From the NCBI GenBank assembly GCA_947846985.1, contig CANTUZ010000025.1:17172100-17236099 (forward strand): DNA of 64,000 nt, in the 5' to 3' direction. Positions 10,503 to 47,074 of this stretch are shown here, piece after piece. The stretch comes from Fratercula arctica. Its lineage: Eukaryota > Chordata > Aves > Charadriiformes > Alcidae. Position numbers and translations under genes: made by a program. Below the pieces are notes generated by a model that saw nothing but the letters and a program-made list of their open reading frames with translations, did not search any database and was not told the DNA's origin. Within the stretch, counting starts at the first letter, position 1, and every line of letters begins with the position of its first letter.

Positions 10503-12641
10503 ACTGTACAGGCTACTTACTACATTATGAAGTAATTAACATCTGCAAGAAAAACAAAAAAAGAATATGTTTGCTTAGTTCCTAAAAAAAAAAAGATTAA
10601 AAAATCAACAAACCAGACACGGGATGAACCATTTAATCAGTAGAGAAAATGAGAAAATGTTTCATTAACAAAATTCACAAAGGCCTGCATGCCTAAAATT
10701 TCTCCTGACATCCAAAGAAGCTAAAAGGCGCTTCTTCCTCTATTTCAGTTATACTTACTAGCCTCTCAGACGGTGCTAGACATTAAATAAACCAACTACA
10801 TCAGTGGGTTTTCTTGAAACTGTCTTGTGCTTTTAAACAAAGAAAAATATGTACAGAAATGCTGAAAGCAACAGCCATGCCAGCCATGCATCGGATCTTT
10901 TAGATATCTTCCAGAACACAAGCCATGCTCATGAAGATTGTCATTTGTTTTCACCAAGGATTTCCTATTCTGTCTCTAGGAAATGGCTGTGTTTTCATCT
11001 ACCTCTTCTAATTAAAAAGCTATGTCCTACATTGGTTCATACCAGAAAAGGTAAATTAAGGGGAAAAACTCACCAGAAGAGGCGGGGGGGGGGGGGAAGA
11101 AAAAGAGAGAGAAACAGAGTGCATAAATTCTAGTTATATTTGAATCCTGTAAATTAACATTAAACCAAATGTGGGAATAATTTGCAGGTCTGTGCTAAGA
11201 TTCACACAGTTCTTCAGCAAAAGGTGCATTTCTCATATGCAAAATTCAACATACTGATACTTTAGCCTGAATGTCATGTATGCTCACAGTCAAGGGCATC
11301 TTTCCTCCTCCTCTTCCCCCTCTAGTTTGAAGTGCCACCTTCCCTTCTCATGCCAAGTATTTTAATCAAGTATTTTAATATGTCCACAGGATGTGCACAT
11401 GTGTACATACATGCATCCACATAGCATCAAGAGGTCAGAAACAAGTCTGCTGGGGCTGCAGATTCTAAAGAATTCAAAAGAAAGAAATAATGTCTCACAC
11501 GTTTAATTCTGGTAATTTAACACTGAGAATTTTCAAAGGATAATCCTAGCTACCTAGTGGTTTCTAGACATGCTAGACAAGGACATTAAAAGAGGCAATG
11601 CTGTCACTCCCATTTTGTGTCGATTGATTTCAATCCACCAGGAGACCTTTCAACACCTGGCAGATGAATCTACCTTCTAGTCCATCCAGACAGAGCAGCT
11701 GGTCAGGTCAATTTAGCTCAACTCAATATCATCTCCCATTTCAGGTAAATCAGACCCTGCAGTACATAAGACCACCAAAACAGGTTATGCATTAGTGTCA
11801 TTAAACACAGCACACATTGGGTCTGCAGCAGGTCTCCTCCATGGCTCTAACCCATCAGCAGCTGCAATCAGAGAGTGTTGCACCCTCCGTATAGCCAGCG
11901 GAGAGAAGGGCGCTCAGTCAGCAATGATGGAAGGAAGAAAGGTATAATTTGTTTGTTCCTCCTGACATTCACCTTTGCTTACAGTTTTCCCAATCCAAAT
12001 CAGTTCTCCGTGAGGAAACTCTGCTCTTTTCTTCTTATCTGCCTGCTCCTGAGCACCCCATCCCACTAAGACAACTCCAGACTTCAATAGGCTTCACATC
12101 ACATCAGAAACATTCTCTTTTGCATAGCCTATGCAAAGAATTTTATTGGTGTGAAAAACAGATATTTAATTTTTTCTCTTTCAGTAGGCATGTTTTTTTT
12201 CTGAATTTCCTTCCTGTAGTCCTAGCTGTAGAGTCTGTATTTTTGAAGGAAAAGAAAGATTTCATTAACGTCGCATATCTGAAAAAAAATTCAAGGAAGC
12301 AAAATCTTGTGTCTGTTCAGCTTGGAAGCACTACTATTTTGTTCAATAAAGGCACATGCATCTTAGATAATTCTTGTCTGTTGTCTGTAATTGATGTTCT
12401 GTTTTCCTGCACTTGACTAACAGTATGTTTTTAAAGGTTCAAGGAAAAAAAAAGGCTTTATGTGAAGCTCAAAAAATTATTCCATGTGACATGAAAGACC
12501 AGGGAGTGGTTAATATTTCCCCCAAAAACCTTTTCCTTTAGCAGTACTGTTGTCATCTTGATAGGTATTTTGTCAAAAAGCATGTTTATTTTTCCTTTCT
12601 CACAATATCTTAGTAAGAACTTTATGTTAAAAGAGTATTAC
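10503..12641. other. NTRK2 intron, unique sequence
   Basis: About 2.1 kb of intron with a 13-base G-run at 11084-11096. Plus-strand ORFs of up to 155 codons (11949-12416) show no domain, and run antisense beside the exon at 12642, so I do not call a gene. Confidence 0.5.
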
Positions 12642-12796
12642 TGCAGTTTGGGACTTTCATATCCAGCAAGGCTGTCCTCTTGGTGTTGTCATCTATGCAA
12701 TATAAATCCCGAGTTTCTCTGTAGAACTTGATCTCTTGAAATTTCTTGATCCACATAATTTCACAGGAACACTTGAATGGATTGTCCAGCAATATC
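12642..12796 (-). CDS. NTRK2: NTRK2 exon, LRR C-terminal cysteine-rich cap
   Basis: This 155-bp exon encodes the cysteine-rich cap that closes the leucine-rich repeats of TrkB. It starts after a TGTAG acceptor (12801-12797) and ends before a GTAATA donor (12641-12636). The first base completes a Leu codon, 51 codons follow, and the last base opens the split codon completed by the exon at 89-225. Visible motifs are DNPFKCSCEIMWIKKFQE, then a stretch with YCIDD, and finally MKVPNC, giving the cap cysteines (C-x-C and two later ones) expected of an LRRCT. There is no stop or frameshift. It lies in unique sequence, with a partial LTR about 1.1 kb upstream in the gene's direction. Confidence 0.94.
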
Positions 12797-13854
12797 CTAC
12801 AGCAAAAATCAAACGATTTCTTAAAAACATATAATGCATATAGAAAAAAGTTTCAAAGCACTCATGTGGGTAAAACTAAAAGTTGAATTCTACTTTAACT
12901 GAAAGTTGAACTCCACTTTAAAAAGCTATGGATCAAAGAGCTCAATGCAGTGCAAACTGTAAGAAGATATGGTTTCTTTGTAGAAAATGAAGCCCTGTCT
13001 GCACCAACTAAGAATCCATCCTGCCACAGATCAGAGAGATCACACAGGGGACTCAATTCCTAACTCCAATTCACTGGCGTAAATCAGGAGTGCCTGGAGA
13101 ATTGGGCTTTCCACTAAGATCCATTTTATTTTATGGCAGCTAAACACATCAGAAATTCTTCCCTTGTATGATAGACTCTGCTCAGCTATCTCAGAAAGAC
13201 CACTCCAGAAAAGGTTTATTGCTGTTAAGTGGATAAATTCTTTATAGAGCCAAACAGTCATGTATTATAGGCAAATTCTAATTCTAATAATAAAAAAGGA
13301 TTTTTACACAACCTTAAAGATTCATCATGTATATCACTCTGGAAAAATCTCACAGTAAAAGCACTAAGTAATGTCATGAAGAAACACTAACTGAAAAAAT
13401 GGCCCTGAAACAGAAATGTATAATATAATCTAGCTATATAGTATGCTGTATGAAATTTAAATCACTGATTAGCAAATTTATCCAATTTTATTTTTAAAAT
13501 TTAATCAAATGTAATGCAATAAAGCCCAAGTGAAATATGAACAGAAACATCCCAAGATCTAGCTAACAAATGACTCAGTATCTCATTTTTTCTCCTAAAA
13601 GCATAGATGAAGTCCAATAAAGCCTGTGCGTGTGACTGCTTGAGGCATCTCATTATAAGAACAATTATTCTTACCAAAATTTCACAAATGTTTTTGATGT
13701 ACAGAAACTAAATTCAAGTTGCTCATAAAATCTGTACTCATAAATGCTTGGGGCTGCCTCCTGAGGATATGAGTGTGCAAATAATCATGAAATACTCAGC
13801 TTTTTAGAGATGCAACCTGTTCCCCTGATGGACTTTCACAGCACTACTGCATGG
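12797..13854. other. NTRK2 intron, unique sequence
   Basis: AT-rich intron directly upstream of the LRR-cap exon in the gene's direction. No repeat or gene was recognised. Confidence 0.5.
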
Positions 13855-19565: not shown

Positions 19566-19644
19566 GAGCAGCATGAAGGAAAAGCAAATGCTCCAGCCAG
19601 TGAGACAGCTTCATTGGGGTCCCAGCTGAAATGCCTTTAGGCAA

Positions 19645-22107
19645 ATGCATGCAGCATGGGAAACAAGCAAGAGTTGGAGATGTGCGTATGCCTCCAGGGC
19701 TATGATCTCATTGGCATCACAGAGATGTGGTAGGATGGTTCTTATGATTGGAGTGTTGGAATGGATGGATACCGACTCTTCAGGAAGAAAGGCTGGGAAG
19801 ACGAGGAGGGGGTGTTGCCCTCTATGTCAATGAACAGCTGGAGTCCATGGAGCTCCACCTGGGGATGGATGAAGACCTAACGGAGAGCTTATGGGTCAAG
19901 ATTAAAGGGAATGCAGGGACAGGTGACATTACAGTAGGGGTCTGCTACAGGCCACCTGACCAGGACGACAGAGCGGACGAGGCCCTCCATAGACAGATAG
20001 GAGCGGCATCGCATTCACAGACCCTGGTCCTCGTGGGGGACTTCAACCAACCCGATATATCTGTTGGAAGGACAACACAGCGGGGCACAAGAAATCCAGG
20101 AAGTTCTTGGAATGTGTCAATGACAACTTCCTTCTTCAAATGGTAGAGGAGCCAACAAGGAGAGGAGCTATGCTGGACCTTGTCCTTACCAACAAGGAGG
20201 GGCTGGTGGTGAGTGTCAAGCTCAAGGGTAGCCTTGGCTGCAGTGATCATGAAATGGTAGAATTCAAGATCCTTCGGACAGTGAGGAGAGCACGCAGCAA
20301 GCTCACTACCCTGGACTTCAGGAGAGCACACTTTGGCCTCTTGAGGGACCTGCTTGGCAGGGTAACATGGGAAAAAGTACTGGAGGGGAGGGGGGCCCAA
20401 GAGAGCTGGTTAGTATTCAAATATCACCTCCTCCAAGCTCAGGAGCGGTGCATCCCAAGAAAGAAGAAGTCAGGCAAAAATGTCAGGAGGCCTGCATGGC
20501 CTTGGACAAGCTCAAAAGTAAAAAGTAGGCCTACAGAGGGTGGAAGCAAGGATGGGTAGACTAGGTGAGACAGAGAAACTGTCTGAGTGACCAGGAACCA
20601 CATTAGGCAAGCTAAAGCCCAGACAGAATTAAAACTGGCCAGGGACATCAAGGGCAACAAGACAAACTTCTATAAGTACGTCTGAGACAAAGGCAAGACT
20701 AGGGAAGATGTGGGCCCTCTCCAGAAGGAGACAGGAGACCTGGTCACCCAGGATATGGAGAAGGCTGAGGTGCTGAATGACTTTTTTGCCTTGGTCTTCA
20801 CCGGCAAGGGCTCTAACCACACTGCCCAAGTTGCAGAAGGCAAAGGCAGGGTCTATGAGAATGAAGAACCACCCACTGTAGGAGAAGATCAGGTTCGAGA
20901 CCATCTGAGGAACCAGAAGGTGCACAAGTCCATGGGACCTGATGAAATCCATCCACGGGTCCTGAGGGTGCTGGCAGATGAAGTCGCCAAGCCGCTTTCC
21001 ATCATATTTGAAAAGTCATGGCAGTCTGGTGAAGTTCCCACTGACTGGAAAAGGGGAAACATAACCCCCATTTTCAAAAAGGGAAGACCCAGGGAACTAC
21101 AGACCAGTCAGTCTCACCTCTGTGCCTGGCAAGATCATGGAGCAGATCCTCCTGGAATCTCTGCTAAGGCACATGGAAAATAAGGAGGTGATCGGTGATA
21201 GCCAACATGGCTTCACCAAGGGCAAATCATGCCTGACAAATTTGGTGGCCTTCTATGATGTTGCCACAGCATTGGTAGATAAGGGGAGAGCAACTGACGT
21301 CATCTACCTGGACTATGCAAAGTGTTTGACGCTGTCCTGCATGACATCCTTGTCTCTAAATTGGAAAGGCATGGATTTGATGGATGGACCACTTGGTACA
21401 TAAGGAACTGCCTAGATGGCTGCCCTCAAAGGGTTGCAGTCAATGGCTCAATGTCCACATGGAAACCAGTGATGAATGGCATTCCTCAGGGGTCAGTACT
21501 GGCACCAGTGCTGTTTAACATCTTTGTCGGTGACATGGACAGTGGGACTGAGTGCACCCTCAGCAAGTTTGCCGATGACACCAAGCTGTGTGGCATGGTC
21601 GACACACTGGAGGGAAGGGATGCCATCCAGAGGGACCAGGACAGCCTTGAGAGGTGGGCCTGTGCGAGTCTCATGAAGTTCAACCAGGCCAAGTGCAAGG
21701 TCCTGCACCTGGGTCATGGCAATCCCAGGCACAAATACAGGTTGGGTGGAGAATGGCTGGAGAGCAGCCCTGAGGAGAAGGACTTGGGGGTGCTGGTGGA
21801 CGAGAAGCTCAACATGAGCAGGCAATGCGCACTTGCAGCCCAGAAAGCCAACCGCATCGTGGACTGCATCAAAAGAAGCATGGCCAGCAGGTCGAGGGAG
21901 GCGATTCTGCCCCTCTACTCTGCTCTGGTGAGACCCCACCTGGAGTACTGCGTCCAGCTCTGGAGTCCTCACCACAAGAAGGACATGGACCTGTTGGAAC
22001 GGGTCCAGCGGAGGGCCACGAAGATGATCTGGGGATTGAAACAACTCCCCAATGAATACAGGCTGAGAGAGTTGGGGTTGTTCAGCCTGGAGAAGAGAAG
22101 GCTCTGA
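19645..22107 (+). pseudogene. CR1 ORF2 remnant (endonuclease and reverse transcriptase)
   Basis: ORF2 supplies the endonuclease that nicks the target and the reverse transcriptase that copies the element. The endonuclease starts near MGNKQELE (19660); a stop replaces the second Trp of the ETWW-type motif, and a frame change follows near 20110. VLVGDFNQPDI carries the Asp/Asn pair, and CSDHEMV the terminal Asp-His. RT blocks include [12 protein letters not shown] (21205), [11 protein letters not shown] and KFADDTKLC. The last long frame (21322-22107) ends at an early TGA at 22105-22107, inside the C-terminal region. The inverted copy at 30093-31133 has the same TGA. Confidence 0.85.
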
Positions 22108-22455
22108 GGAGACCTTATAGCAGCCTTCCAGTCCCTAAAGGGGGCCTACAGGAAGGATGGGGAGGGACTCTTTATCAGGGAGTGTAATGATAGGACATGG
22201 GGCAACGGCTTCAAACTGAAAGAGGATAGATTTAGATTGGATATCAGGAAGAAATTCTTTACTGTAAGGGTGGTGAGGCGCTGGAACAGGTTGCCCAGGG
22301 AAGTTGTGGATGCCCCATCCCTGGAAGTGTTCAAGACCAGGCTGGATGAGGCTTTCAGCAGCCTGGTCTAGTGGGAGGTGTCCCTGCCCATGGCCGGGGA
22401 GTTGGAACTAGATGATCTTTAAGGTCCCTTCCAACCCAAACCATTCTGTGATTCT

Positions 22456-22620
22456 GTGACTTTGTCCCGCAGGTCCCCGTCTTGCAGTCCTTTGACTTTG
22501 GAGGCATGAGGAGAGAGGCTGGCAGTGAAGACCGAGGCAAAAAAGTTACTGAGAACCTCAGTCTTCTCCTTGTCTGTTTACAAATTCTTCATTACTAAAT
22601 GAAGTATTACAATGAAGTTC
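22456..22620 (-). mobile_element. older CR1 LINE, right part of a split copy
   Basis: Minus-strand CR1 from just upstream of the RT: read on minus it contains the FFA-VFT-type stretch seen also at 20780 on plus. It continues the copy at 16816-17517 across the inserted plus-strand element. The boundary near 22620 is approximate. Confidence 0.65.
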
Positions 22621-22720
22621 AAAGAATTTGAGAAAACAAAAATATTGTTCAATAGCCAACCACAAGCATAGCAGCTGTGGAGCCAATATGATATAAGAAT
22701 ATGAGATAAAGACTTCATTT

Positions 22721-23815
22721 CAAAATGTTGCTAAAATGGAGAGACATGGATTTGATGGATGGACCACACTCAAAGAGCTGCGCTCAACGGCTCAGTGTCC
22801 AGGGGGAGACCAGTGATGAGTGGGGTCCCTCAGGGGTCTGTATCAGGACCAGTTGTTATTTAACGACTTTGTCAGGGACACGGACAGTGGGATTGAGTGC
22901 ACCCTCAGCAAGTTTGCCGACGACACCAAGCTGTGTGGCACGGTCGACACACTGGAGGGAAGGGATGCCATGCAGAAGGACCTGGAGAAGCTTGAGAGGT
23001 GGGCCCATGCGAACTTTATGAAGTTCAACCAGGCCAAGTACAAATACAGGCCCTGTTGAACTGGGGTTGCCTGCATCAGGGCAATCCCAAACAGAAATAC
23101 AGGCTGTGTGATGAGTGGATTGAGAGCAGCCCTGAGGAGGAGGACTTGGGGGTACTGGAGGATGAAAAACTGAATATGACCTAGCAATGTGTGCTCACAG
23201 CCCAGAAAGCCAACCGCATCGTGGACTGCATCAAAAGAAGCATGGCCAGCAGGTCGAGGGAGGTGATTCTGCCCCTCTACTCTGCTCTGGTGAGACCCCA
23301 CCTGGAGTACTGTGTCCAGCTCTGGAGCTCCCAGAATAAGAAAGACATGGACCTGCTTGAGCGGGTCCAGAGAAGGGCCACGAAGATGATCTGGGGATTG
23401 AAACAACTCCCCTATGAGGACAGGCTGAGAGAGTTGGGGTTGTTCAGCCTGGAGAAGAGAAGGCTCCAGGGAGACCTTATTGGGGCCTTCCAGTAGTTAA
23501 AAGGGGCCAACAGGAAAGATGGGGAGGGACTCTTTATCAGGGAGTATAGCAATAGGATGAAGGGTAACAGTTTTAAACTGAAAGAGGGTAGATTCAGATT
23601 AGATATCAGGAAGAAATTCTTTACTGTGAGGGTGGTGAGACACTGGAACAGGTTGCCCAGAGAAGCTGTGGCTGCCCCATCCCTGGAAGTGTTCAAGGCC
23701 AGGCTGGATGGGGCTTTGAATAACCTGATCTAGTGGGAGGCGTCCCTGCCCATGGCAGGGGGGTTGGAACTACATGATCTTTAAGCTCCCTTCCAACCCA
23801 AACCATTCTATGTTC
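22721..23815 (+). mobile_element. CR1 LINE, 5'-truncated
   Basis: Plus-strand CR1 starting in the RT ([11 protein letters not shown]) and ending [23 protein letters not shown] is intact, but a small insertion near 23040 and a stop at 23180 break the frame. The next 101 codons (23191-23496) are open. It is the same group as 17518-22460 but clearly diverged from it. It lies about 325 bp from the NTRK2 exon at 24141. Confidence 0.9.
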
Positions 23816-24140
23816 TGCAGATGGCTGTATTTTTTATTAGCTCAAATACAAGCACTAGTAGTTTTGCGTGAAATAATCTCATAAAAAGTATTTTAAAGTT
23901 GAAGGGAGAAGGCTATTTTGGTTTATAGATTTATGTTAAAACATACACAATCTTTTCTGAAGGCCTGGAAGTAAAATCTCTCTGCACTTATGTCACTGGC
24001 AACATATTTGCTGCCTTCTTCGGATCAGAATTTAATTTCTAATCTTTGATGGACCTGTAGGTTCAAAAGAACAAACTTCAAAGTCGTGTTCTTTCATTGC
24101 TAGCCACAAATAAAATTTATTTTAAAAAATGACAACTCAC

Positions 24141-24209
24141 AGATCAGACAAACCCAGATGGTGAAAAGGCTTCTTGGACAAAGTTGAGATCTTGTTTCTG
24201 GATAAATTG
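24141..24209 (-). CDS. NTRK2: NTRK2 exon, leucine-rich repeat
   Basis: This 69-bp exon encodes one leucine-rich repeat of TrkB. It begins after a CCCGTAG acceptor (24210 onward on the minus strand) and ends before a GTGAGT donor (24140-24135). One leading base completes an Ile codon and two trailing bases start a Leu codon, so the phase fits the exons on both sides. The codons read NLSRNKISTLSKKPFHHLGL and on through SD, an LRR pattern with leucines at regular spacing. It lies between the two perfect inverted CR1 arms at 21420-22460 and 30093-31133. Some residues, such as KPFHH, differ from the avian sequence I recall, so sequence confirmation matters. Confidence 0.93.
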
Positions 24210-26428
24210 CTACGGGAAAACAGAAAAATTGTATTAATTAGGGCTGCTTCTTCTTACACTCCCAATACAGGTTGCGTCTCTCAAAAAAAATGAAGTGCCC
24301 AAATCAGCTTTAAAAAGCTCTTATTCCTTTAACTTAAGTGGGAATGGAATAGTGCCCAGTCTCTTTTTACAGTTTTACAGTTTGATGGGTTTCAAGGATT
24401 TGAATCCAGCCTGTGCCTTTAAAATCAAACTCAACATGGAGTCAATATTTTCACTTAAAGCACATTCAGAAAAGTTCATTACAGAAAAGCAGCAGATTTA
24501 ATTGTGTTTCACAAGTATTATGTAAAGTCCAGGTGTTAATTATATGCTTAATTTATTCATAAGTGAAATGGTTGTATCCCTTCCTTTGATACTGCACCGA
24601 ACTCTGTACTCACATACTAGCACACATCCACATCAGAGACTTTTAGTTATTATGTTCAAATTACATGTGCAATATGCACCCACAGGAAAGATCAACAGCA
24701 AAAATGTAAAATGCCTATATTGGGCTTTTTTATGTCAGTTAAGCATTTACAGTTTCCAGTGGTAATTAAGTGAAAGGTCCTCTCCCATTATGCAGAGCAA
24801 ATGAATGCTCATCTGAATCAGAAATGCTTCCCTTCCTAGGCTTACAAAAATGCTTTCTCCAAACCCAAATAATGCTGATTTTCTATAGTCTTATCAGTAC
24901 ACAAATTAAAGATAGTGAGAGCAGTAAACTGTAAAACTGCCAGTAGTGTAGTGCAAATCAGCATTATGAGCCAAAATACCACGAGTTTTATGTGGTATTT
25001 TAGAGGTGCCACAGGGGCTCCATATTTTAAGTTGCATAGCATTTAAAACAGGGATTAAACCTCTGTACCCGCCCCCTGACTAAAAAACACAGTATTTACT
25101 CCCCCTACTTTTAGCCCTTGATCTCTGAGTACAAGACAATTTTCAGAGAAATTATGGGGATACAAGTTGCATCTTTTTATAAACATTTAGAATGGAATCT
25201 TTAAGAGATTTTATTTACTATACTTTTGTTGATTCCTTCTAGCAATGGTCTGAAGTTTGCAAGCTGACTGGTCCTAATGTGTGAGAACAAAATGGGTGAG
25301 CTACTCTTTCGTTACTCAGGTCAACTGAGCTGCCCTACAATAGATGCTGATGGAAATATCTCATGTGGATCATGATGGTCAAAATTAAAGCACAATTTGC
25401 ACGTAGGACAGAAGTTGTGGTTAAGTAAAAACCGGTCAATATGTTAACTAATATGATGTTTTTCCTAATATTCACAAACAATAGGTTGGGAGGTTGAAAG
25501 GAAGAAGTTAAATCCTCCTATGAAATTGGGCTCTTCTCTCCAGCACTGAGACAACATAAAACATGTCAAATCTTACCCCTCCACAGGTGATTCTCACTCA
25601 TCAAAAAAAGTCCATCCAGTCCTGACACTTCTGAGCAGTGCACACAGATGCATGGTATTCCCAAATGAGAGAAGTGCCTGCTTCTCTTACCTGCACAGTG
25701 ACTAAATCCCACCATCCCTGAAAGACAACCAGATATACAGTGGGTTCTACCTGCAGATAGGTACCCATGCCACTTACTAGTCTAGTGGGATGCCACTTAC
25801 TAGTATAGTGGAAGGCAACATATTTCAGGTCATGGTAAGACAAGATTTAAATCTTGGTTTCTGCACAGCAGAAGACCCTTCTCTTCCACACCAGGAGGAC
25901 TCCCTAACCATCAAATGATGGATCCCTCAGGGAAATCTCTGTCCAGCTGAAGCTGTTCCATTTCATGGGATCTTGCCTGACACCCTAAAAGGGAAAGCCT
26001 GGGCTCAAGCTCTGACTTCAGACCAAGACAAATAGAAGGGGCTTTGAAAATCACCCCTCTTCCACTTTCTAAATAACAGAGTATCACAATACAGATCTGA
26101 AAATGAGCCTTAAACATCTTACAGAAGAGCCCCAGATATCCTATGAGATCATATTTTTCTCTTTTTCTCTTAAGAAGATAAAAATGTAAAAATATATCTT
26201 TTAAGAAAATCTTAAAAAAAAAAAAAAAGACTAACTCCAGGAAAGGGTTTTTTGTTGGTAAGCTGGAGTGGACATAAGAGCCTAACTACTTCATGAGCGG
26301 AACTGAACAGGACTGAAGTCCCATTTTTCCTATGGATTTCCTCCTGGCTGGTTACATGCTTAATGGCTTAATGGCCATCTAATTCTCCATTTCTCTGTGA
26401 GGAGCTGATCTGCCTCATTCAGAGACAA
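24210..26428. other. NTRK2 intron, mostly unique
   Basis: AT-rich intron. A short tandem duplication of about 22-23 bp lies at 25768-25812 (TGCCACTTACTAG repeated). A SINE-like relic is listed separately at 25840-25915. No gene was seen. Confidence 0.5.
25840..25915 (-). repeat. possible ancient tRNA-derived SINE (MIR-like) relic
   Basis: The segment resembles the core of MIR-like SINEs, with GATTTAAATCTTGG, the complement of a decayed B-box region, followed by a CCAGGAGGACTCCCTAACCAT block. Recognition is by eye and weak. Confidence 0.35.
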
Positions 26429-26433
26429 GAGCT

Positions 26434-26819
26434 TGTCGTGGTTTAGCTTCAGCTGGCAACAAAGAACCACATGGACGCTCACTCACCCCCCAAAGCTGTC
26501 TGGGAGAATTGGAAGAAAAAGGCAAAATTCGTGGGTTGAGATAAAGGCAGTTTAATAGAACAGCAAAGAAAAGAGAAAAAACAACAACAATAACACTGAT
26601 AGAGGAATGTACAAAACACGATTAATGTACCACTGCTCACCAACCGGACCAAGGAACCCCCCAGCCTGCTCCCAAGCATGGACTTTCTGCTCCCTCCTCG
26701 GCCAGCTTCCTGGCCAGCTCCTCCACTATAGACTGGGCATGGCTCACATGGTATGGAATACCTGTGTCCCATGCCACATCCTTGTGAAAATTAACCCTAT
26801 CCCCACCAGAACCAGAACA
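26434..26819 (-). mobile_element. solo LTR, avian ERVL-type family B, shortened
   Basis: Minus-strand copy of 386 bp. On plus it begins TGTCGTGGTTTAGC and ends ACCAGAACA. The 5-bp duplication GAGCT flanks it exactly (26429-26433 and 26820-26824). TCGTGGGTTGAGATAAAGGC is the complement of the family's conserved block. It is shorter than the 520-560 bp relatives. Confidence 0.87.
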
Positions 26820-26824
26820 GAGCT

Positions 26825-27826
26825 CTACTGGACAGCAGACTGTTCAGTGTTGCCATAATTGTATTTTGTTGTCATTTAGCTTTAGGCCACTCATCACTTT
26901 TGGAGAATTATTGCAACCCCCTAGGCATAAGAATAGTCCTTACTTGATTTAAATTCATAAGCCAGACTTACTGTCCAAATATCAGTGAGTATGTTACTTT
27001 CTGAACACTTGATGCAGGTATAAATGACTGCATGAGCCAGTGAGGAACTGGAACTATTAATTCAAGCAAAATTATCAAAAGAATAAAGAATTATTATTTT
27101 TAACAAATCCAGTTGTGAAAAACCAAAAGTAACTCAATAAGTTTAATTGTCTTTTCAGATTTTTACCAGTTGTGTTTGCTATATACCAGACAAAGGTAGT
27201 AAGAAGCAGTAAAAACAGTAACAAAAAAATCCTGTTCCTATATTCTTGGTCATTGGTTGACACATTTAGTACTTTATGACTGTAACCTTTTCCTCCATGT
27301 AGTTTAGCACCTTAAGGTTTTTCAAGTTGGTGAGTAATTCAACAGAAATTTTTCAGACCACTGTTATTGATTTATTACCTTAAACTATACTTTGACATTA
27401 AATTTACTGTTATATATTTTTTTCATAAACTGAGCACTTTATATTGATTATAGAGATGCCTGCTATGGTCTCTTTAATCCATGTTAAGTGAAAAAACATG
27501 GACCAACTTATTACAGAGTAGGCAATGACCACTCATCCACTTCCATGGAAAGAGAATATAAATTAGTTCACGAATTCAATTACACACACACGCGTGCACA
27601 CGCATGCGTGTGCACACAGACACACACAAAGATTGTGGTGAGCAGCCCAAAGACGATTCAAAAGTACGACTGTATTTTACATACGAATATCAAGCCCACT
27701 TTAAAGTAGCTAGACCTAATACAGCTAAAAGCATACCTGTGGCAACATAGGGAATGCAAGAGTGGCCTAAGCAACTGCATAAACATTCACATAGCTAGCA
27801 ACACAGGTGCAGCTTTACATTGCAAT
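26825..27826. other. NTRK2 intron with an alternating purine-pyrimidine tract
   Basis: Unique AT-rich intron. The tract at 27581-27628 is the only structured element noticed. Confidence 0.5.
27581..27628. repeat. CA/CG alternating tract with a 22-bp perfect palindrome
   Basis: A CA-type microsatellite whose middle (27594-27615) is a perfect palindrome centred on GCATGC. The alternating purine-pyrimidine order favours Z-DNA or cruciform forms in principle. Confidence 0.85.
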
Positions 27827-27831
27827 GTCAC

Positions 27832-28395
27832 TGCACTGGGTCTGGCTAGGATGGAGTTAATTTTATTCATAGCAGCTGGTATGGCACTGTGTTTTAGATT
27901 TGTGACCAAAACACTGCTGATAACACACTAATGTTTTAGCTATTGTTGAACAGCGTTTGCACAGTGTCAAGGCCTTCTCTGTTTTTCACTCTGCCCCCCC
28001 AGTGAATAGATTGGGGGTGCACAAGAGGTTGGGAGGGGACACAATCAGGCAAATGACCTGAACTGACCAAAAAGCTGTTCCATGCCATATAACATCATGC
28101 TCAGCAATAAAACGGGAGAGGAGGGGTTTTAGGAATTTAGCCATCTTTTGCTCTGGAACTGTCTGGGCATCAGTCTATCCGAGAGGTGATGAGTGATTGC
28201 CTGTGCATCACTTGTTTTGTTTTCTGTCTTCTTCCACTTCTCCTTCACATATTAAACTATTTTTATCTCACCCACAAAGTTTTCTTGCTTTTACTTTTCC
28301 ATTCCTCTTCCCCCATCCCACTGAGGGGTGGGAGGTGGGGAAGTGAATGAGTGGCTGTGTGGTGCTTACCTGCCTACTGGGGTTAACCCACAACA
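27832..28395 (+). mobile_element. solo LTR, avian ERVL-type family B
   Basis: Starts TGCACTGGGTCTGG and ends CCCACAACA. The 5-bp duplication GTCAC flanks it exactly (27827-27831 and 28396-28400). It contains CATGCTCAGCAATAAAA and ATCTCACCCACAAAG, matching the copy at 6394-6949. Confidence 0.9.
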
Positions 28396-28707
28396 GTCAC
28401 TATGCCACTATACTGCCTACACTGCTCCTGGCAAGGAGAGGCAAGAAGGAATAGGAGGGAACAGATCTCAGGAGAATGGGAGGGAAGAGTTTAAGAAATG
28501 GTCATGGCCATTTTGCTATGCTCAGTCTCCTCTACAGGCTCTTGCTCTGCCTACGGTTTAGCCAGCCCTGTATTGCCTGTGCACGTGAGGGAAAATCTGC
28601 AGCTAGGTCTCAAATAGTTACATTTGGCTACTTATCCTAAACCAAATCAGCCTAGAGATATGAACGCATTCTAATACCTAGATCTGTAAGTATACAATGT
28701 ATCATCC

Positions 28708-29793
28708 ATGGCATCCATGAGCTCCGCACCCACCAGCTCTGATGCAGCTTCCCAGACGGAGCTCCTGTGGGAACGTGCTGCCACACAGACATCAGGCTGC
28801 AGGGTGTGCCCTGCTCTTATGCCGGTGTCGGATGGCAGTGGTGGGCACTGTGGGAGATGTGCCCAGGTAGAGGAGCTTCTCCACTTAGTGATGGAGCTCA
28901 GGGAGGAGGTAAGCATGTTGAGGGCCATCAAGGAATGCGAGAGGGAGATAGATGCTTGGAGTAGCACCCTGCCTCCCACGACAGAAACCAAGCAGGCAGA
29001 CAGAATCCCTGCTACAGAGAACTCCCTGTCCTCTCTCCGCCCGACTGAATGTGGTGACTTGGAGGACAGGGGGCAATGGCAAGAAGTTCCTGCCCGGCGC
29101 AACAGGTGCCACAGTTGTGACTGCCCAGCGACTACCCCACCTTCCCAGATACCATTGTGTAGCAGGTATAGTGCTCTGCAAGGGAACCTGTATGATGATG
29201 AGCACGATAATTCTCCTACCTTGGAGGTGTCAGCGAGGTCTAGTCAGACCACCCCCTGCACCAAAACCTCTGCAGTAAAGAAGAAAAGACGGGTCATTGT
29301 CATAGGTGACTCCCTACCGAAGGGAGCGGAAGGCCCAATATGCAGGCTGGACCTGATACATAGGGAGGTCTGCTGCCTCCCTGGGGCCCAGGCCAAGGAT
29401 GTGAAGAGGAAGCTTCCTTCCCTGGTACGGCCCTCAGACTATTACCCCCTTTTGATCTTTCAGGTAGGCAGCGACAAGGTAGCAAAAAGAAGTCTGAGGG
29501 CAATGAAGAGACATTTCAGGACCCTGGGATGACTGGTCAAAGGATCGGGAGCACAAGTTGTGTTCTCTATCCCTCCAGTTGTGGGGAATGATGAGGGGGT
29601 AAATAGGAAGAGCCAGCAGATCAATGCCTGGCTCCGAGCCTGGTGCTGCCGGCAGGACTTTGGGTTCTTTGATCATGGCCTGATTTACAAGACACCAGGC
29701 CTGCTGGTAACGGGTGGGAATAGCTTATCTTGCAGGGGGAAAAGGGTTCTAGGACAAGAGTTATCGGGGCTCACTGAGAGAGCTTTAAACTAG
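28708..29793 (+). pseudogene. CR1 ORF1, one stop from intact
   Basis: The ORF1 protein binds element RNA and has a C-terminal esterase-like fold in CR1. The first 274 codons are open (28708-29532), then a TGA at 29530-29532, then the same frame stays open to 29793. In order: an N-terminal Ser/Thr-rich start, a CGRCAQ cysteine pair, a coiled-coil-like LLHLVMELREEVSMLRA, a spacer, a basic KKKRR run, and VIVIGDSLPKG with the GDS nucleophile motif of GDSL esterases. Later blocks are VRPSDYYPLLIFQVGSD and DFGFFDHGLIY. It is the best preserved ORF1 here. Whether the stop is real needs read support. Confidence 0.85.
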
Positions 29794-30092
29794 ATTCGAA
29801 GTGGGGTGGGGATGCTACTGGGCTTACTGGTGAGGTGCCTGGGTGTAGTAGCTCAGCACTTGTGGGGGAGTGTGCCAGTATTTCTGAGAGCCAGAAGGCC
29901 TACCACATCTCAACGATGAAAACTACACACACAACTCCCTCTCTGAAATGCTTATACACCAATACACGCAGCATGGGGAATAAACAGGAAGAGCTGGAGA
30001 TCTGTGTGCGATCGCAGGGCCACGATCTCATTGCAATTACTGAGACATGGTGGGACAGCTCACATGACTGGAACCGTGTCATGGATGGCTAT

Positions 30093-31148
30093 GTCACAGA
30101 ATCACAGAATGGTTTGGGTTGGAAGGGACCTTAAAGATCATCTAGTTCCAACTCCCCGGCCATGGGCAGGGACACCTCCCACTAGACCAGGCTGCTGAAA
30201 GCCTCATCCAGCCTGGTCTTGAACACTTCCAGGGATGGGGCATCCACAACTTCCCTGGGCAACCTGTTCCAGCGCCTCACCACCCTTACAGTAAAGAATT
30301 TCTTCCTGATATCCAATCTAAATCTATCCTCTTTCAGTTTGAAGCCGTTGCCCCATGTCCTATCATTACACTCCCTGATAAAGAGTCCCTCCCCATCCTT
30401 CCTGTAGGCCCCCTTTAGGGACTGGAAGGCTGCTATAAGGTCTCCTCAGAGCCTTCTCTTCTCCAGGCTGAACAACCCCAACTCTCTCAGCCTGTATTCA
30501 TTGGGGAGTTGTTTCAATCCCCAGATCATCTTCGTGGCCCTCCGCTGGACCCGTTCCAACAGGTCCATGTCCTTCTTGTGGTGAGGACTCCAGAGCTGGA
30601 CGCAGTACTCCAGGTGGGGTCTCACCAGAGCAGAGTAGAGGGGCAGAATCGCCTCCCTCGACCTGCTGGCCATGCTTCTTTTGATGCAGTCCACGATGCG
30701 GTTGGCTTTCTGGGCTGCAAGTGCGCATTGCCTGCTCATGTTGAGCTTCTCGTCCACCAGCACCCCCAAGTCCTTCTCCTCAGGGCTGCTCTCCAGCCAT
30801 TCTCCACCCAACCTGTATTTGTGCCTGGGATTGCCATGACCCAGGTGCAGGACCTTGCACTTGGCCTGGTTGAACTTCATGAGACTCGCACAGGCCCACC
30901 TCTCAAGGCTGTCCTGGTCCCTCTGGATGGCATCCCTTCCCTCCAGTGTGTCGACCATGCCACACAGCTTGGTGTCATCGGCAAACTTGCTGAGGGTGCA
31001 CTCAGTCCCACTGTCCATGTCACCGACAAAGATGTTAAACAGCACTGGTGCCAGTACTGACCCCTGAGGAATGCCATTCATCACTGGTTTCCATGTGGAC
31101 ATTGAGCCATTGACTGCAACCCTTTGAGGGCAGTCATCTAGCCAGTCC
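30093..31148 (-). mobile_element. CR1 LINE inserted in the CR1 endonuclease; perfect inverted copy of 21420-22460
   Basis: Minus-strand 5'-truncated CR1 with its tail at the left (TCACAGAATCACAGAATGG). It interrupts the plus-strand CR1 after the endonuclease MDGY codons. From 30093 to 31133 each base pairs with 21420-22460 under position x to 52553 minus x, with no mismatch found in the stretches I compared and with every open frame on both strands identical. The first mismatch is at 31134. It includes the same TGA (30446-30448) as the partner. The 337-codon ORF from 31459 runs out of the insert into antisense host CR1, so its first third is not a real protein. Confidence 0.9.
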
Positions 31149-31168
31149 TTTACAGGAAAGACAGGCCA

Positions 31169-32749
31169 GTGAGGCGAGGTGGTGGAGTTGCACTTTATGT
31201 GAGAGAGCAACTGGAATGCATCGAGATCTCCCTGGGGGCGGATGAAGGGAGAGCTGTGAGCTTGTGGGTAAGGATTAAGGGGCAGGCAAATATGAGGGAC
31301 ACTGTTGTGGGTGTTTATTACAGGCTGCCTGATCAGGATGGGGAATCTGATGAGGCCTTCTACAGACAGCTGAAAGCAGCCCCGCAATCGCAGGTCTTGG
31401 TTCTCATGAGGGACTTCAATCACCCTGATATCTGCTGGGAAGGCTACACATCCAGGCACGCACAGCCCAGGAGGTTCCTCCAGTGTATTGATGATAACTT
31501 TTTGACACAGGTGGTGCAGGAGCCAACAAGGAGAGAAGTACTACTGGACCTAGTACTGACAAACACAGAGGGAAGTAGTCAACATGGATTCACCAAGGGG
31601 AAATCATGTCTGAGTAATCTGCTAGCCTTCTATGATGGAATGACTGGATGGAGAGATGAGGGGAGGGCAGTGGATGTTGTCTACCTTGACTTCAGCAAGG
31701 CGTTCGACACGGTCTCCCACAGCATCCTCATAGGGAAGCTTAGGAAGTGTGGGTTGGATGAATGGACAGTAAGGTGGATAGAAAACTGGTTGAAAGACAG
31801 ACCTCAGAGGGTCGTGATTAGGGGCACAGAGTCTAGTTGGAGGTCAGTGACAAGTGGTGATCCCCAGGGGTCAGTACTGGGTCCAGTCCTATTGAATATA
31901 TTCATCAATGACCTGGATGAGGGGATAGAGTGCACCCTCAGCAAGTTTGCTGATGACACAAAGCTGGGAGGGGTGGCTGACACACCAGAAGGCTGTGCCA
32001 CCATACAGCGAGACCTAGACAGGCTGGAGAGTTGGGCGGAGAGGAACCTTATGAAATTCAATAAGGGCAAGTGTAGGGTGCTGCACCTGGGGAGGAATAA
32101 CCCCATGCACCAGTACAGGTTGGGGGCTGACCTGCTGGAGAGCAGCTCTGTGGAAAGAGACCTGGAGGTCCTGGTGGACAACAGGATGACCATGAGCCAG
32201 CAATGTGCCCTTGTGGCCAAGAAGGCCGAGGACATCCTGGGGTGCATCAAGAAGAGTGTGGCCAGCAGGTCGAGGGAGGTCATCCTCCCCCTCTACTCTG
32301 CCCTGGTGAGGCCGCATCTGGAGTACTGTGTCCAGTTCTGGGCTCCCCAGTTCAAGAAGGACAGGGAATTGCTGGAGAGGGTACAGCAAAGGGCTACCAA
32401 GATGATTAGGGGACTGGAACACCTCTCTTATGAAGAAAGGCTGAGGGATTTGGGTCTCTTCAGTCTGGAAAGAAGACGACTGAGGGGGGATCTTATCAAT
32501 GCTTATAAATGCTTAAAGGGTGGGTGTGAGGATGATGGGGCCAGGCTCTTTTCAGTGGTGCCCGGCCACAGGACAAGAGGTAACGGGCACAAACTTGAGC
32601 ATAGGAAGTTCCATCTCAGCATGAGGAGGACCTTCTTTACTTTGAGGATGACAGAGCACTGGAACAGGCTGCCCAGAGAGATGGTGGAGTTTCCTTCTCT
32701 GGAGACATTGAAAACCCGCCTGGATGCGTTCCTGTGCAACCTGCTCTAG
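31169..32749 (+). pseudogene. CR1 ORF2 remnant: endonuclease piece fused to RT, 526 open codons
   Basis: The longest open frame in the window. It begins in the endonuclease ([15 protein letters not shown]), passes YYRLPDQDG and [14 protein letters not shown] (GDFN changed to RDFN), then [10 protein letters not shown], and jumps straight into RT at [15 protein letters not shown]. Compared with the CR1 at 52018-54937, roughly 320 codons between the endonuclease and RT are missing, yet the frame is kept. RT blocks [11 protein letters not shown] and [10 protein letters not shown] and the C-terminal region to the natural stop are complete. The endonuclease lacks its N-terminus (lost to the inserted CR1) and its terminal SDH block (in the deletion), so autonomous activity is not expected. 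Confidence 0.85.
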
Positions 32750-32828
32750 GTGACCCTGCTCTGGCAGGGGTATTGGACTAGATGATCTCCAGAGGTCCTT
32801 TCCAACCCTACCATTCTGTGATTCTGTG

Positions 32829-34323
32829 AAATTGAACAAATTTAGTAGGCCTTCTCAGCCTATCCTGAAATGATTTGCTTTACAAACGCCTTATAGCTCT
32901 GTTGTTGTTCTCAAATGTCTTTCTAGATGAGTAGGTCCGGTGCCCTAATCTGTATACAGTATTCAATGCCTTCCCAGCAGCTAAAGTAATGGGGAGAAGA
33001 TGCAAAAAAGTCTAATACAAAGTTACTTCTGATCAGAGACTGAATTTGCTTTGTTCTGCTGCATCATGCTGAGATTCTGTTTCAATATAGCCACTAAACA
33101 TTTCTCAGCAACTGTGCCACTTAGCCAATAAATTCGCATTGTGAATTTCCACAGTCATTGCATATGCACTTGACTTTATGGAATTTCATCTTATACAATC
33201 ATAATTCACTGGGAAATTGACACACAGGTAGACAACAGAAACTCATTCTGGAAGATACTTTCCTTATTCACCAACTGATTATAGTAAAAGCAATTTACTT
33301 TATTCAGGTATGTAAGTATGAAGTAACATGTAACCCTCATAGGCCAGCGAGAGTTCTAGATGGATAGACTTAAACACACACTTGAATACTTGGCTAAAAC
33401 AGTGAGCCCCACACATGATCTCAATGTTTTGTAGGACTGGAACCACAATTTTCCATATAAGTAGCAGGAATGAGTTACTCCGTCCCACTGTCATGATTTG
33501 GGCCAGACTGACCACTGACGAATGACAGATTCAGTGCCACTGAAAGGCACTCCAGTCTTTCAGGGATATGTATTTAAACTAAAAACCCACAAAATCTTTC
33601 TTTATAACTGATCATTTTTTCTCTGTACTTTGCTAAATCTAAACTAATCTAGAAAAACGCGGTCAAGAAGTTGCACAGGCATCAAATCTGTTTCCTGAAG
33701 TTCATGAACTGCAAAGTACAATTGGGTGGGAAAATAACCGCATTCTTATATTCTGCTTTGGGTGCATCAGCTCAGCTCAGAATTGAGCTGAAGTGAATCT
33801 TCTGATCATCTTCACTTACAAAACTTGAGTTGACAGGCATGGTAGAGTCTCAGGGAATGTAAACTAGTCAAACTACATTAGAAGATGTGCTCCATGCATG
33901 GACCAAATGCACTTCTAGCTGCTAAAACATGTTCAGCCCACTGAATCAGTCTAGTGCTAGTCCAAAGTCAAACCCATGTCACTGAGTGTGATGCACATAG
34001 TGTGGACATCATACTCTCACCACCAAACAACTCAGTAGAGAGATGCACTCCTTTGTGCTCCACTACTTACTAAAAGAGACACAGCCAGTGATCACTGTTA
34101 GAAACAGGATAATGAGCTGCATGGGTCTTTTTGCCATTCCACATTATGTTCTACCATTATGATCTTCCAATTCCTTATCATACATGTCCTATTTCATGCC
34201 CATTAATGACAGGAGGCCATTAGAAGTTAAAACATTTTATATTAAGGAAACAGGAAGAGAGAGAAGGGAGTTAACAAGGTTTGGACAATTTTAACTTATA
34301 AAACAGAAGCTATCCTTACTCAC
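32829..34323. other. NTRK2 intron, possibly with a very old CR1 relic
   Basis: About 1.5 kb. At 32840-33130 on the minus strand there is weak CR1-like order (CCTTCTCAGCCT, later a CTGTATACAGTATTCAATGCC stretch resembling the APELDTVFQ region), too decayed to call firmly. The rest is unique. Confidence 0.35.
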
Positions 34324-34803: not shown

Positions 34804-35844
34804 TGTATTTGGTTTTTGTGGCAAGGTTTTGGTAGCAGGAAGGGCTGCAGGGGTAGCTTCTGTGAGAAGATGCTAGAAACCGCCCCCATGTCAGACAGAG
34901 ACAGTTACAGGCTCCAAGACAGATCTGCCGCTGGCCAAAGCTGAGCCAATCAGTGACATTGGTAGCACCTCTGTGATAACATATTTACAGCAGCTGGGAG
35001 AGAGAAGTGAGAATATGTGAGAGAAACAACTATGCAGACACCAAGGTCAGTGAAGAAGGAGGGGGAGGAGGTGCTCCAAGTGCTGAAGAAGAGATTCCCC
35101 TGCAGCCCACAGTGAAGACCATAGTGAAGCAGGTTGTTCCCCCTGCAGCCCATGGAGGATCACAGTGGAGCAGATATCCACTCTGCAGCCCATTGAGGAC
35201 CCCATACCAGAGCAGGTGGATGTGCCCTGAAGGAAGCTGTGACCCCATGGAGAGCCCATGTAGGACTAGGTCTTCTGGCTGGACCTGTGACCCCGCAGGG
35301 CACCCATGTTGGAGCAGTCCTTTCCTAAAGGGCTGTACCCCATGGAAAGGGTCTGTGCTGGAGCAGTTCTTCAAGAACTGCAGCCTGTGGGAAGGGCCCA
35401 TGCTGGAGCAGTTCGTGAAGGACTGTATCCCATGGGAGGGTCACCATGCTGGAGCAGGGGAAGAGCATGAGGAGGAAGAAGCTGCAGAGATGAAGCATTA
35501 TGAAGTGACTGTAACCCCCGTTCCCCATCCCTGTGTGCCACTCAGGGGGAGGAGATAGAGAAGTGGGGAGTGAAGTTGAGCCTGGGAAGGGAGGGGTGGA
35601 GGGAAGGTGTATTTTAGATTTTTTTCTTATTTCTCATTATCCTACTCTGATATGACTGGTAATAAATTAAATTAATTTCCCCAAGTCGAGCCTGTTTGCC
35701 CATGATGGTAATTGCTGAGTGATCTCACTGTCCTTATCTTGACCCATGAGCTTTTTGTCATATTTTTTCCCCTTGTCCAGTTGAGGGGGAGTGATAGAGC
35801 AGCTTGGTGGGCACCTGGTGGTCAGCCAAAGTCAATTCACCACA
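34804..35844 (+). mobile_element. solo LTR, avian ERV family A, long form with internal tandem units
   Basis: Starts TGTATTTGGTTTTTGTGG and ends TCACCACA. Flanks TGCAC and TGCAG match at 4 of 5 bases. The middle (about 35095-35460) is a chain of imperfect units of roughly 50-60 bp built around ATGCTGGAGCAGTT and CCCATGGA, which keeps a 183-codon frame open (35007-35558) that I judge to be repeat-derived. AATAAA lies near 35660. The related LTR at 1444 is 683 bp because it lacks most units. The left edge lies about 110 bp from the NTRK2 exon at 34617-34691. Confidence 0.8.
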
Positions 35845-40502: not shown

Positions 40503-40504
40503 CT

Positions 40505-41507
40505 CATAGAATCATAGAATCATTTAGGTTGGAAAAGACCCTTGGGATCATCGAGTCCAACCATCAACCCCACTCTACAAAGTTCTCCCCTACACCATAT
40601 CCCTTAACACCACATCTAAATGACTCTTAAACGCATTCAGGGATGGTGACTCCACCACCTCCCTGGGCAGTCTATTCCAGTGTCTGACCACTCTTTCTGT
40701 GAAGAATTTTTTCCTAATGTCCAGTCTAAACCTACTGTGTTGCAGCTTGAAGCCATTCCCTCTTGCTCTATCATGGCATGAATAAAGAATGACTTGTAAT
40801 TCTATACTTTGTATTCTAGCTTTGTTGCCCTTCTCTGGACCCGCTCCAGCACCTCAATGTCTTTCTTGTAGGGAGGGGCCCAAAACTGGACACAGTACTC
40901 CAGGTGGGGCCTCACCAGTGCCGAGTACGGGGGGACGATCACTTCCCTAGTCCCACTCACCACACTGATCCTGATACAGGCCCAGAATGCTGTTGGCCTT
41001 CTTGGCCACCTAGGCATGCTGCCGGCTCATGTTCAGCTGGCTGTCCACCAGCACCCCCAGGTCCTTTTCTGCCAGGCACATCTCCAGCCACTCTTCCCCA
41101 AGCCTGTAGTGCTGCATGGGGTTACTATGACCCAAGTGCAGGACCCAGCACTTGGCCTTGTTGAACCTCATACCATTGGCCTCGGCCCATCGATCCAGCC
41201 TGTCCAGATCCCTCTGCAACGCCTCTCTACCCTCAAGCAGGTCGACACTCCCACCTAACTTGGTGTCACCTGCAAACTTATTGAGGGTGCACTCAATCCC
41301 CTCATCTAGATCGTTGATAAAGATATTTAAGAGAACTGTCACCAATACTGAGTCGTGGGGAACACCACTTGTGACCGGCCACCAACTGGATTTAACTCCA
41401 TTTACCACCACTCTCTGGGCCCAGACATCCAGACAGTTTTTACCCAGTAAAGAGTACTCCCATCCAAGCCATGGGCAGCCGGTTTCTCCAGGAAGATGCT
41501 GTGAGAA
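40505..41507 (-). mobile_element. CR1 LINE 'A', outer element of a triple nest, 3' part
   Basis: Minus-strand CR1 with tail at the left (ATAGAATCATAGAATCATTT). It runs from the 3' end up through RT (41010-41519 on minus includes a decayed [10 protein letters not shown] in place of FADD). It stops at about 41507 inside the codons before AFDTV. The same element continues on the far side at 48084-48447. Confidence 0.9.
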
Positions 41508-41852
41508 CCACAGAATCACAGAATGGTAGGGGTTGGAAGGGACCTCTGGAGATCATCTAGTCCAACCCCCCTGCCAGAGCAGGGTCACCTAGAGCAGGTT
41601 ACACAGGAACGCATCCAGGCAGGTTTTCAATGTCTCCAGAGAAGGAAACTCCACCATCTCTCTGGGCAGCCTGTTCCAGTGCTCTGCCACCCTCAAAGTA
41701 AAGAAGGTCCTCCTCATGCTGAGATGGAACTTCCTATGCTCAAGTTTGTGCCCATTACCTCTTGTCCTGTGGCCAGGCACCACTGAAAAGAGCCTGGCCC
41801 CATCATCCTCACACCCACCCTTAAAGCATTTATAAGCATTGATAAGATCCCC
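41508..41852 (-). mobile_element. CR1 LINE 'B', middle element of the nest, 3' part
   Basis: Minus-strand CR1 3' end (CACAGAATCACAGAATGGTAG) of the young subfamily. Its C-terminal ORF2 codons (41589 upward) match those at 32503-32749. It is cut at GATAAGATCCCC (41841-41852) by the provirus and resumes at 47075 with the duplicated bases ATCCCC. Confidence 0.93.
41847..41852. repeat. provirus target-site duplication, left copy (ATCCCC)
   Basis: ATCCCC lies here and again at 47075-47080. The uninterrupted CR1 at 3822-3840 has this hexamer once (GATAAGATCCCCCCTCAG), which proves the insertion point. Six base pairs is the duplication size of alpha- and beta-type retroviruses. Confidence 0.92.
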
Positions 41853-42263
41853 TGCCGGGTCCAAACCGACTCTCAGTCGTGCGGGCACAGGGAAAGACGA
41901 ACGCACCAATACGATGCAAGTCAACTCCAACTTTATTCAGCTTAATCGTTACATTTATAGCATTATGCTATCTGTTCACGCGCTCTAACTCCTACTGATT
42001 GGCTGCATGCTATTTTCACGAGCTGTCCACGCACAGGCAGCATCCTGCTGATAGGTTGAAGGTCGATTGCCACACGCTTCTCAGTGTCTTCTAACTGGTC
42101 GTCTCTGACTGTTCACACGGAGCAGCAGCTTTGCTTTTCACATTCCTTTCCTTGCTGATATCTCCTGACGCTTGCTTATCTTTTCTCTCAAGGCGCCTCT
42201 CACGGGTACAGCTTTGTCTCATCAAGGCCAAACAGATTCCCTATGCTACTCTCTATCTCCACA
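41853..42263 (-). repeat. provirus 3' LTR (411 bp)
   Basis: Ends are TG and CA. On the minus strand U3 carries an AGCCAATCAG CCAAT box (42004-41995) and a TATA-type CTATAAATG (about 41960-41952), then AATAAAG for polyadenylation (41937-41931). The partner is 46664-47074. Confidence 0.94.
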
Positions 42264-42290
42264 ATTCCCCCTTTTTTATTTTTTCTACAA
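42264..42290 (-). other. provirus polypurine tract
   Basis: The minus strand reads an A-rich run, then AAAAAAGGGGGAAT, directly before the U3 start TGTGGAG. This is the position of the plus-strand primer of retroviruses. Confidence 0.85.
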
Positions 42291-46663: not shown

Positions 46664-47074
46664 TGCTGGGTCCAAACCGACTCTCAGTCGTGCGGGCACA
46701 GGGAAAGACGAACGCACCAATACGATGCAAGTCAACTCCAACTTTATTCAGCTTAATCGTTACATTTATAGCATTATGCTATCTGTTCACGCGCTCTAAC
46801 TCCTACTGATTGGCTGCATGCTATTTTCACGAGCTGTCCACGCACAGGCAGCATCCTGCTGATAGGTTGAAGGTCGATTGCCACGCGCTTCTCAGTGTCT
46901 TCTAACTGGTCGTCTCTGACTGTTCACACGGAGCAGCAGCTTTGCTTTTCACATTCCTTTCCTTGCTGATATCTCCTGACGCTTGCTTAACTTTTCTCTC
47001 AAGGTGCCTCTCATGGGTACAGCTTTGATTCATCAAGGTCAAACAGATTCCCTACGCTACTCTCTATCTCCACA
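46664..47074 (-). repeat. provirus 5' LTR (411 bp)
   Basis: Same length as the left LTR, with 9 differences by eye. It carries the same CCAAT, TATA and AATAAA signals. It is followed on the plus side by the second ATCCCC (47075-47080). Confidence 0.94.

Follow-up and report, generated by a model that had tools for sequence, protein, structure and literature searches.

Two inverted CR1 arms in the stretch of Fratercula arctica DNA that we analysed (a window of 64,000 nucleotides, C25:17172100-17236099) are identical over 1041 bp, and we consider it likely that they are separate old insertions of one subfamily, one of which was recently overwritten by ectopic gene conversion. We favour conversion because the tails adjoining the identical tract differ, no third near-identical copy was found among those scored, the arms lie close together and mosaic pairs occur elsewhere on C25. 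The identity, the private mutations common to both arms, the differing tail, the mosaic pairs and an effect of distance among the sampled copies are observed directly. The Trk gene of the window, a nerve-growth receptor gene that we take to be NTRK2, has a second copy (a gametolog) on the 84-Mb C26, and C25 is for this reason very probably the W chromosome, which only females carry. The C26 intron that matches the one containing the left arm is without the arm.

Structure of the two arms

The initial annotation, made from the letters of the window, had described mirror-image arms of 1041 bp with no indel and had proposed a base-level alignment that might reveal several mismatches. We aligned the left arm (L, 21420-22460, plus strand) with the right arm (R, 30093-31133, minus strand) over their full 1041 bp and found 0 mismatches and no indel, so the description was borne out. 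A repeat search of the window delimits the arms as 21401-22460 and 30093-31152. Past 21419 the alignment continues for 19 bp with 4 mismatches; judging from the reading frame of the element that hosts R, about 8 of these 19 bp would be target sequence resembling CR1, and the remaining CR1 tail is 11 bp long (21409-21419, equivalent to 31134-31144 on the minus strand at the 5' end of R), with 2 mismatches between L and R. On the 3' side the identity ends at the CR1 3' terminus, and the pair has no divergent 3' edge. The outer flanks of the arms are unrelated on both sides. The identity exceeds chance, since the next-longest identical run among the 94 self-matches of at least 250 bp within the window measures 350 bp and other copies of the subfamily differ from one another by a median of 8.8% (703 pairs among 38 copies), or about 91 differences per 1041 bp.

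L is the 3' 1041 bp of a long CR1 and comprises the C-terminal part of the RT and the 3' UTR; the inactivating TGA that had been attributed to both arms is real and lies in frame at 22105. Using tblastn with full-length CR1 proteins and ORF segments, we placed the endonuclease and the N-terminal RT region of this element at 19596-21419 (plus strand), a part that R does not have. The left CR1 starts at or before 19596 and carries frameshifts near 19787, 20061, 21080 and 21313 (approximate positions), and R is a 5'-truncated CR1. An RVT_1 domain match, similar proteins from birds and turtles and a common 3' end identify a CR1-type EN-RT ORF2; we take the name CR1 and the CR1 3' signature to apply to these elements.

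Private mutations inside the tract and different tails outside it

As a reference we took 38 further copies of the subfamily from the genome (L009-L046), selected by similarity to L and not at random, each of which differs by 3.9-6.3% from their joint consensus. L and R deviate from the subfamily consensus at the same 45 of 1036 bases, and 16 of these deviations, among them those at 21503, 22133 and 22395, are absent from all 38 copies. None of the 38 other matches to L scored above 93%, with 40 of 13,384 candidates from the bird's own assembly (1.21 Gb) being scored. Because R has every one of the private deviations of L (16/16) and no third scored copy exceeds 93%, the interiors of the two arms, as read from their sequence, are of one recent origin. 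Base 21414, which at first seemed private to L and R, was discarded, being the subfamily's own base in 27/37 genome copies.

The tails differ. At position 21411, R has the subfamily base (35/37 copies) and the base of L is found in 0/37, while at 21419 it is L that has the subfamily base (34/37 copies) and the base of R is found in 2/37. With each copy decayed by 4-5%, the 11-bp tail should hold about one difference and the 1041-bp tract about ninety; the observed numbers are two and zero, and the mismatch rates of the tail (2/11) and of the tract (0/1041) differ accordingly (Fisher p 1e-4). Inside the tract all copy-specific mutations are common to both arms, and neither of the 2 tail changes is, so that the interiors look like a single sequence, whereas the tails look as if they came from two old insertions that took place independently. 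The L-R tract is bounded by divergent homologous sequence on one side only. The tail itself is only 11 bp long and lies at the end joined to the target, where insertion can leave errors.

A rival reading derives both arms, as recent copies, from an active and nearly identical master element located elsewhere; CR1 is active in some birds according to part of PMC8665684. We regard this as extremely improbable, given that no third copy above 93% appeared among the 40 scored of 13,384 and that L carries frameshifts. The changes private to L with respect to both of its closest copies in the window also look neutral (18 nonsynonymous to 7 synonymous, with 72% expected), which argues weakly in the same direction. 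Against each of these two copies alone the counts are 23:16 and 33:22, and the private 18:7 does not differ significantly from the 35:31 on the shared branch (Fisher p 0.15).

The element that hosts the right arm

A third CR1, which we call H, hosts R antisense within its endonuclease region. The part of H beyond R (31145-32832, plus strand) comprises endonuclease, an internally deleted RT and the 3' end, with an open frame at 31142-32746, and deviates from the family majority at 48/1258 bases, or 3.8%. Its probable 5' part, interrupted by R, spans 28801-30092 (plus strand) and comprises an upstream open frame and the start of the endonuclease, with open frames at 28801-29529 and 29778-30092; the former probably belongs to H, to judge from its position. 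The frame of H reads ...WNRVMDGY before the insertion of R and resumes after it with 14 residues [14 protein letters not shown]. In the 10 of 240 proteins with the uninterrupted motif, one residue separates GY from the next motif, and because of this spacing the sequence fits an H that was whole before R arrived. The 3' edge of R is the CR1 3' terminus, and at its 5' edge R and the host are joined at a few bases that are similar by chance.

H resembles the members of its own family more closely the nearer they lie. Within the window, E47 (47075-47995, minus strand; 15 kb away, inverted) differs from H by 1.4% and E4 (3478-4629, minus strand; 27 kb away, inverted) by 3.65%; the divergence is 3.8% for L048 (46 kb), 5.1% for L049 (180 kb) and 5.3-6.4% for five copies more than 0.9 Mb away. 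Deviations in common with H number 23 in E47, 26 in E4, 20 in L048, 12 in L049 and 3-6 in the far copies; the family majority was built from those five far copies, which lowers their counts and leaves the pairwise divergences unaffected. The comparison set consisted of 7 of the 39 other long genome matches together with E47 and E4, E47 lying outside the scored matches. Since the five far copies are among the best genome-wide matches, the contrast between near and far copies of H is conservative. The remark in the initial annotation that other CR1s here differ by several percent stood for copies that are several percent or much more apart; it did not extend to the closest pair, H and E47, which at 1.4% may have been homogenised too. 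H had at one stage been considered very young, given its open frame and 98.5% likeness to E47, and thus a means of dating R; this was dropped when the genome search put H 3.8% from its family consensus. With a host that is itself about 3.8% from consensus, R need not be young.

These observations bear on the two readings offered in the initial annotation, gene conversion between the arms and a very recent copy of a defective element in trans. On the latter, RNA from the defective L would have been retrotransposed to a site 7.6 kb away, and the tail mismatches would come from the 5' joint or have arisen later. R does have what target-primed insertion gives, namely a precise CR1 3' end, a 5' truncation and short similarity at the joint, and it carries the private changes of L together with its stop codon. 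A trans copy, however, requires that two changes fell in the 11-bp tail and none in the 1041-bp tract, the improbable distribution noted above, that L has changed since the event, given that R has the subfamily base at 21411, and that out of 1.2 Gb of genome the copy landed less than 10 kb away; it also leaves unexplained the mosaic cores of other neighbouring pairs and the fall of similarity with distance. We therefore judge it very unlikely. Gene conversion fits, and a fresh copy in trans is not supported, the 5' tail of R not being L's sequence and its host being 3.8% from consensus.

Other close CR1 pairs and the effect of distance

We compared 39 subfamily copies pairwise (741 pairs, R left out). 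Two inverted pairs on C25 have the structure of a mosaic. L029 and L033 lie 89 kb apart and align over 2346 bp, of which 1473 bp form a perfect run while the ends diverge (8 mismatches in the first 239 bp and 18 in the last 411 bp), and L020 and L021, 37 kb apart, share a 574-bp perfect run and have one mismatch in 860 bp, with 10 in 135 bp and 21 in 354 bp at the ends. In both, the identical tract has divergent sequence on either side; retrotransposition does not produce tracts that begin and end within the two elements. The five longest identical runs of the 741 pairs all join copies on the same contig 37-334 kb apart, four of them on C25 (37, 58, 89 and 225 kb) and one on C26 (334 kb); in that order of distance (37, 58, 89, 225 and 334 kb), 0, 4, 0, 3 and 15 of 2000 shuffles reached the observed run. 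The shuffle test is lenient, returning low values for distant pairs too, for example 0/2000 for L014 and L016, 15 Mb apart, and 3/2000 for L017 and L032, 88 Mb apart, with runs of 131 bp.

Divergence rises with distance in two CR1 families, the subfamily of L and the host family of H. For the former, the median is 2.1% below 100 kb (only 3 pairs), 6.0% at 100-400 kb (5 pairs, 2 of which are outside the 12 closest pairs), 8.2% at 0.4-2 Mb (36 pairs), 8.3% farther apart on the same contig (231 pairs) and 9.0% between contigs (466 pairs), and 0 of 5000 permutations reached the mean divergence observed below 400 kb. In both families the trend describes copies picked for their resemblance to L or H rather than at random. 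Among the sampled pairs closer than 400 kb none is autosomal, and the effect is also seen in one pair on C26, so the sample gives no contrast between the W and the rest of the genome. Homogenisation has not reached the CR1 that lies nearest to L (22769-23817): it is 85% identical to L, and its longest identical run measures 66 bp. Its divergence from L may be too great.

Repeats of more than 1 kb are a classic place for assembly errors, and the identity of L and R might be an effect of assembly or polishing, the two arms differing in the animal and reads from one having been used for both. The divergent edges and identical cores of L029-L033 and L020-L021 can be read as edge-anchored collapse, in which the assembly resolved only the edges of the repeats. 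The L-R pair, in contrast, has no divergent 3' edge, and bases of L that are absent from 11 other window copies are present in R close to both limits of the tract, 39-61 bp in from the 5' end and 60-65 bp in from the 3' end, the outermost bases absent from all 38 genome copies lying 83 bp (5') and 65 bp (3') inside the tract. The assembly moreover kept distinct the copies that are 1.4-3.8% apart at 15-46 kb, and collapse is not expected to depend on genomic distance. All this makes an assembly effect unlikely.

Nor do L and R have the structure of a segmental duplication or palindrome. Palindromes of the W are known in birds, as described in part of PMC7787181; the arms of a sex-chromosome palindrome reach beyond a single repeat into duplicated flanks, whereas neither flank of L resembles its counterpart beside R, and R is nested in another CR1. 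The 3' flanks of four other close pairs, including L029-L033 and L020-L021 (about 60 bp compared), are also unrelated, and we give this reading next to no chance.

Conversion between the arms, the reading we prefer, would have proceeded as follows. L, a long, decayed CR1, and R, a 5'-truncated one lying antisense in another CR1, would go back to two separate and old insertions of the same subfamily into the W chromosome. In a recent ectopic (non-allelic) event, presumably within one chromatid or between sister chromatids, 1041 bp of one arm would have been replaced by the sequence of the other, a stretch that reaches the end of homology on the 3' side and stops 11 bp short of the 5' end of R; the event would be one instance of a distance-dependent homogenisation among neighbouring CR1s on C25. 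Greater decay of L upstream of the arm would fit R as the donor. Deviations from consensus number 59/1006 upstream and 45/1036 in the arm, and indel sites 5 and 1 (a further site at the extreme end left out). This is a weak difference, and a second count, of changes private to L against E8, shows none (27/367 upstream and 66/950 in the arm).

The window holds a possible second case. Copy A (50842-51110, plus strand) and copy B (40504-40772, minus strand) are identical over a 232-bp core and differ by 5 changes in a 37-bp 5' tail of copy B, two of which are also present in L062 (5/37 against 0/232, Fisher 4e-5). They share 6/6 core deviations from the majority of six other copies, only one of which is absent from all six, and the family is common, the 39 matches besides copy A among the 40 scored all being 97-98% identical. 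On these sequence comparisons the pair offers a faint hint of a further conversion.

The Trk exon between the arms

The exon that had been placed between the arms does lie there. It is a 69-bp Trk leucine-rich-repeat exon (24141-24209, minus strand), with a gametolog exon on C26. Outside the arms and on the same strand are a match containing the next Trk exon, LRRCT (12595-12798; C25:17184694-17184897), and one containing a Trk Ig-domain exon (89-226; C25:17172188-17172325), and by its motif we presume a further Trk exon near 34.3 kb. In the assembly, the exon between the arms keeps the strand and order of the Trk exons near 34.3, 12.7 and 0.2 kb, and the haplotype of the assembly is therefore not inverted. 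Recombination between the arms could in principle invert the exon; this is not implied, because in the human Y palindrome P6 conversions far outnumber inversions (56 against 3, as given in part of PMC3723533).

Relation to known systems and implications

Conversion between dispersed repeats, its dependence on distance and its excess on sex chromosomes are already known from primate Alu elements, for which part of PMC6598467 describes non-allelic conversion governed by distance and identity, its rates being higher at less than 10 kb and in hotspots, above all on the sex chromosomes. The copies described here are likewise mosaics with a dependence on distance; unlike the Alu case, they are CR1 LINEs in a bird, the identical tract exceeds 1 kb, and the pairs are clear at distances of up to 89 kb, with a weaker one at 334 kb. 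With the arm-to-arm conversion of P6 (PMC3723533, in part) they have in common inverted arms, a sex-limited chromosome and kilobase-sized tracts; the arms of P6, however, are duplicated blocks, while L and R are individual dispersed repeats whose flanks have nothing in common. Repeat-built palindromes are also known already, on the duck W, where part of PMC7787181 describes TE palindromes of 15.2-345.5 kb; these too are inverted structures made of repeats on a bird W, whereas L and R are two separate insertions of one element. HINTW, an ampliconic gene, undergoes gene conversion within the avian W (cited in PMC4468903), and the present case would resemble it in being intrachromosomal conversion on an avian W and differs in involving retrotransposons rather than an ampliconic gene. 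Judged by title and abstract opening, we found no report of CR1-to-CR1 conversion on a bird W among the best literature matches, a search that left most subscription journals out of reach. New here is the instance itself, in CR1s of what is very probably the W of a bird, its tracts clear and its distance trend obtained from one assembly.

Conversion here would mean that DNA is exchanged inside a chromosome for the most part closed to recombination with its partner, and it would leave countable tracts, each with a length, a distance and an orientation, on a chromosome thought to be non-recombining over most of its length; such tracts would make the rate of intrachromosomal recombination on the W measurable from one assembly. 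If the process is general, the similarity of neighbouring repeats on the W reflects conversion and not age, and dating on sex-limited chromosomes needs correction. A broader picture, to which we give somewhat less than an even chance, is that most CR1s on the W are mosaics of their neighbours, that continuous conversion among densely packed CR1s knits the chromosome together and systematically makes its repeats appear too young, and that recombination borne by transposable elements could invert segments such as the one that holds this exon.

Repeats and insertions in the window

The CR1 element interrupted by the right arm of the identical inverted CR1 pair keeps 535 codons open (31142-32746), despite lying 3.8% from the majority sequence of its family. 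In comparison with other CR1s, it seems to carry an internal deletion that removes the N-terminal part of the RT, with its junction at 31571/31572 and the reading frame preserved across it. Another CR1 of this family, on the minus strand and apparently in two pieces (41509-41852 and 47075-48444), seems to have been split by an inserted LTR element. Between the pieces we found two direct, plus-strand LTR-like repeats of 420 bp (41853-42272 and 46664-47083), which are 97.6% identical, have TG...CA ends and are flanked by an apparent 6-bp target duplication, ATCCCC. Comparison of the window with itself also showed a further repeat family, with direct copies at 1444-2123 and 34804-35841 (~79-80% identity).

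The Trk intron separating the LRR and LRRCT exons measures 11.4 kb on C25 (within C25:17184694-17196307), very probably the W, vs ~1.3 kb on C26 (within C26:43759681-43761188), the putative Z. The left arm is among the C25 insertions in this intron.

Possible CR1 homogenisation on C26

Two further copies of the arms' subfamily, L024 (C26:71997121) and L031 (C26:72331603), are inverted relative to each other and 334 kb apart, and their divergence is 3.1%, against a median of 8.8% among pairs. This is a weaker case than that on C25; since this inverted pair shows it, the apparent homogenisation of neighbouring CR1s is not limited to C25.
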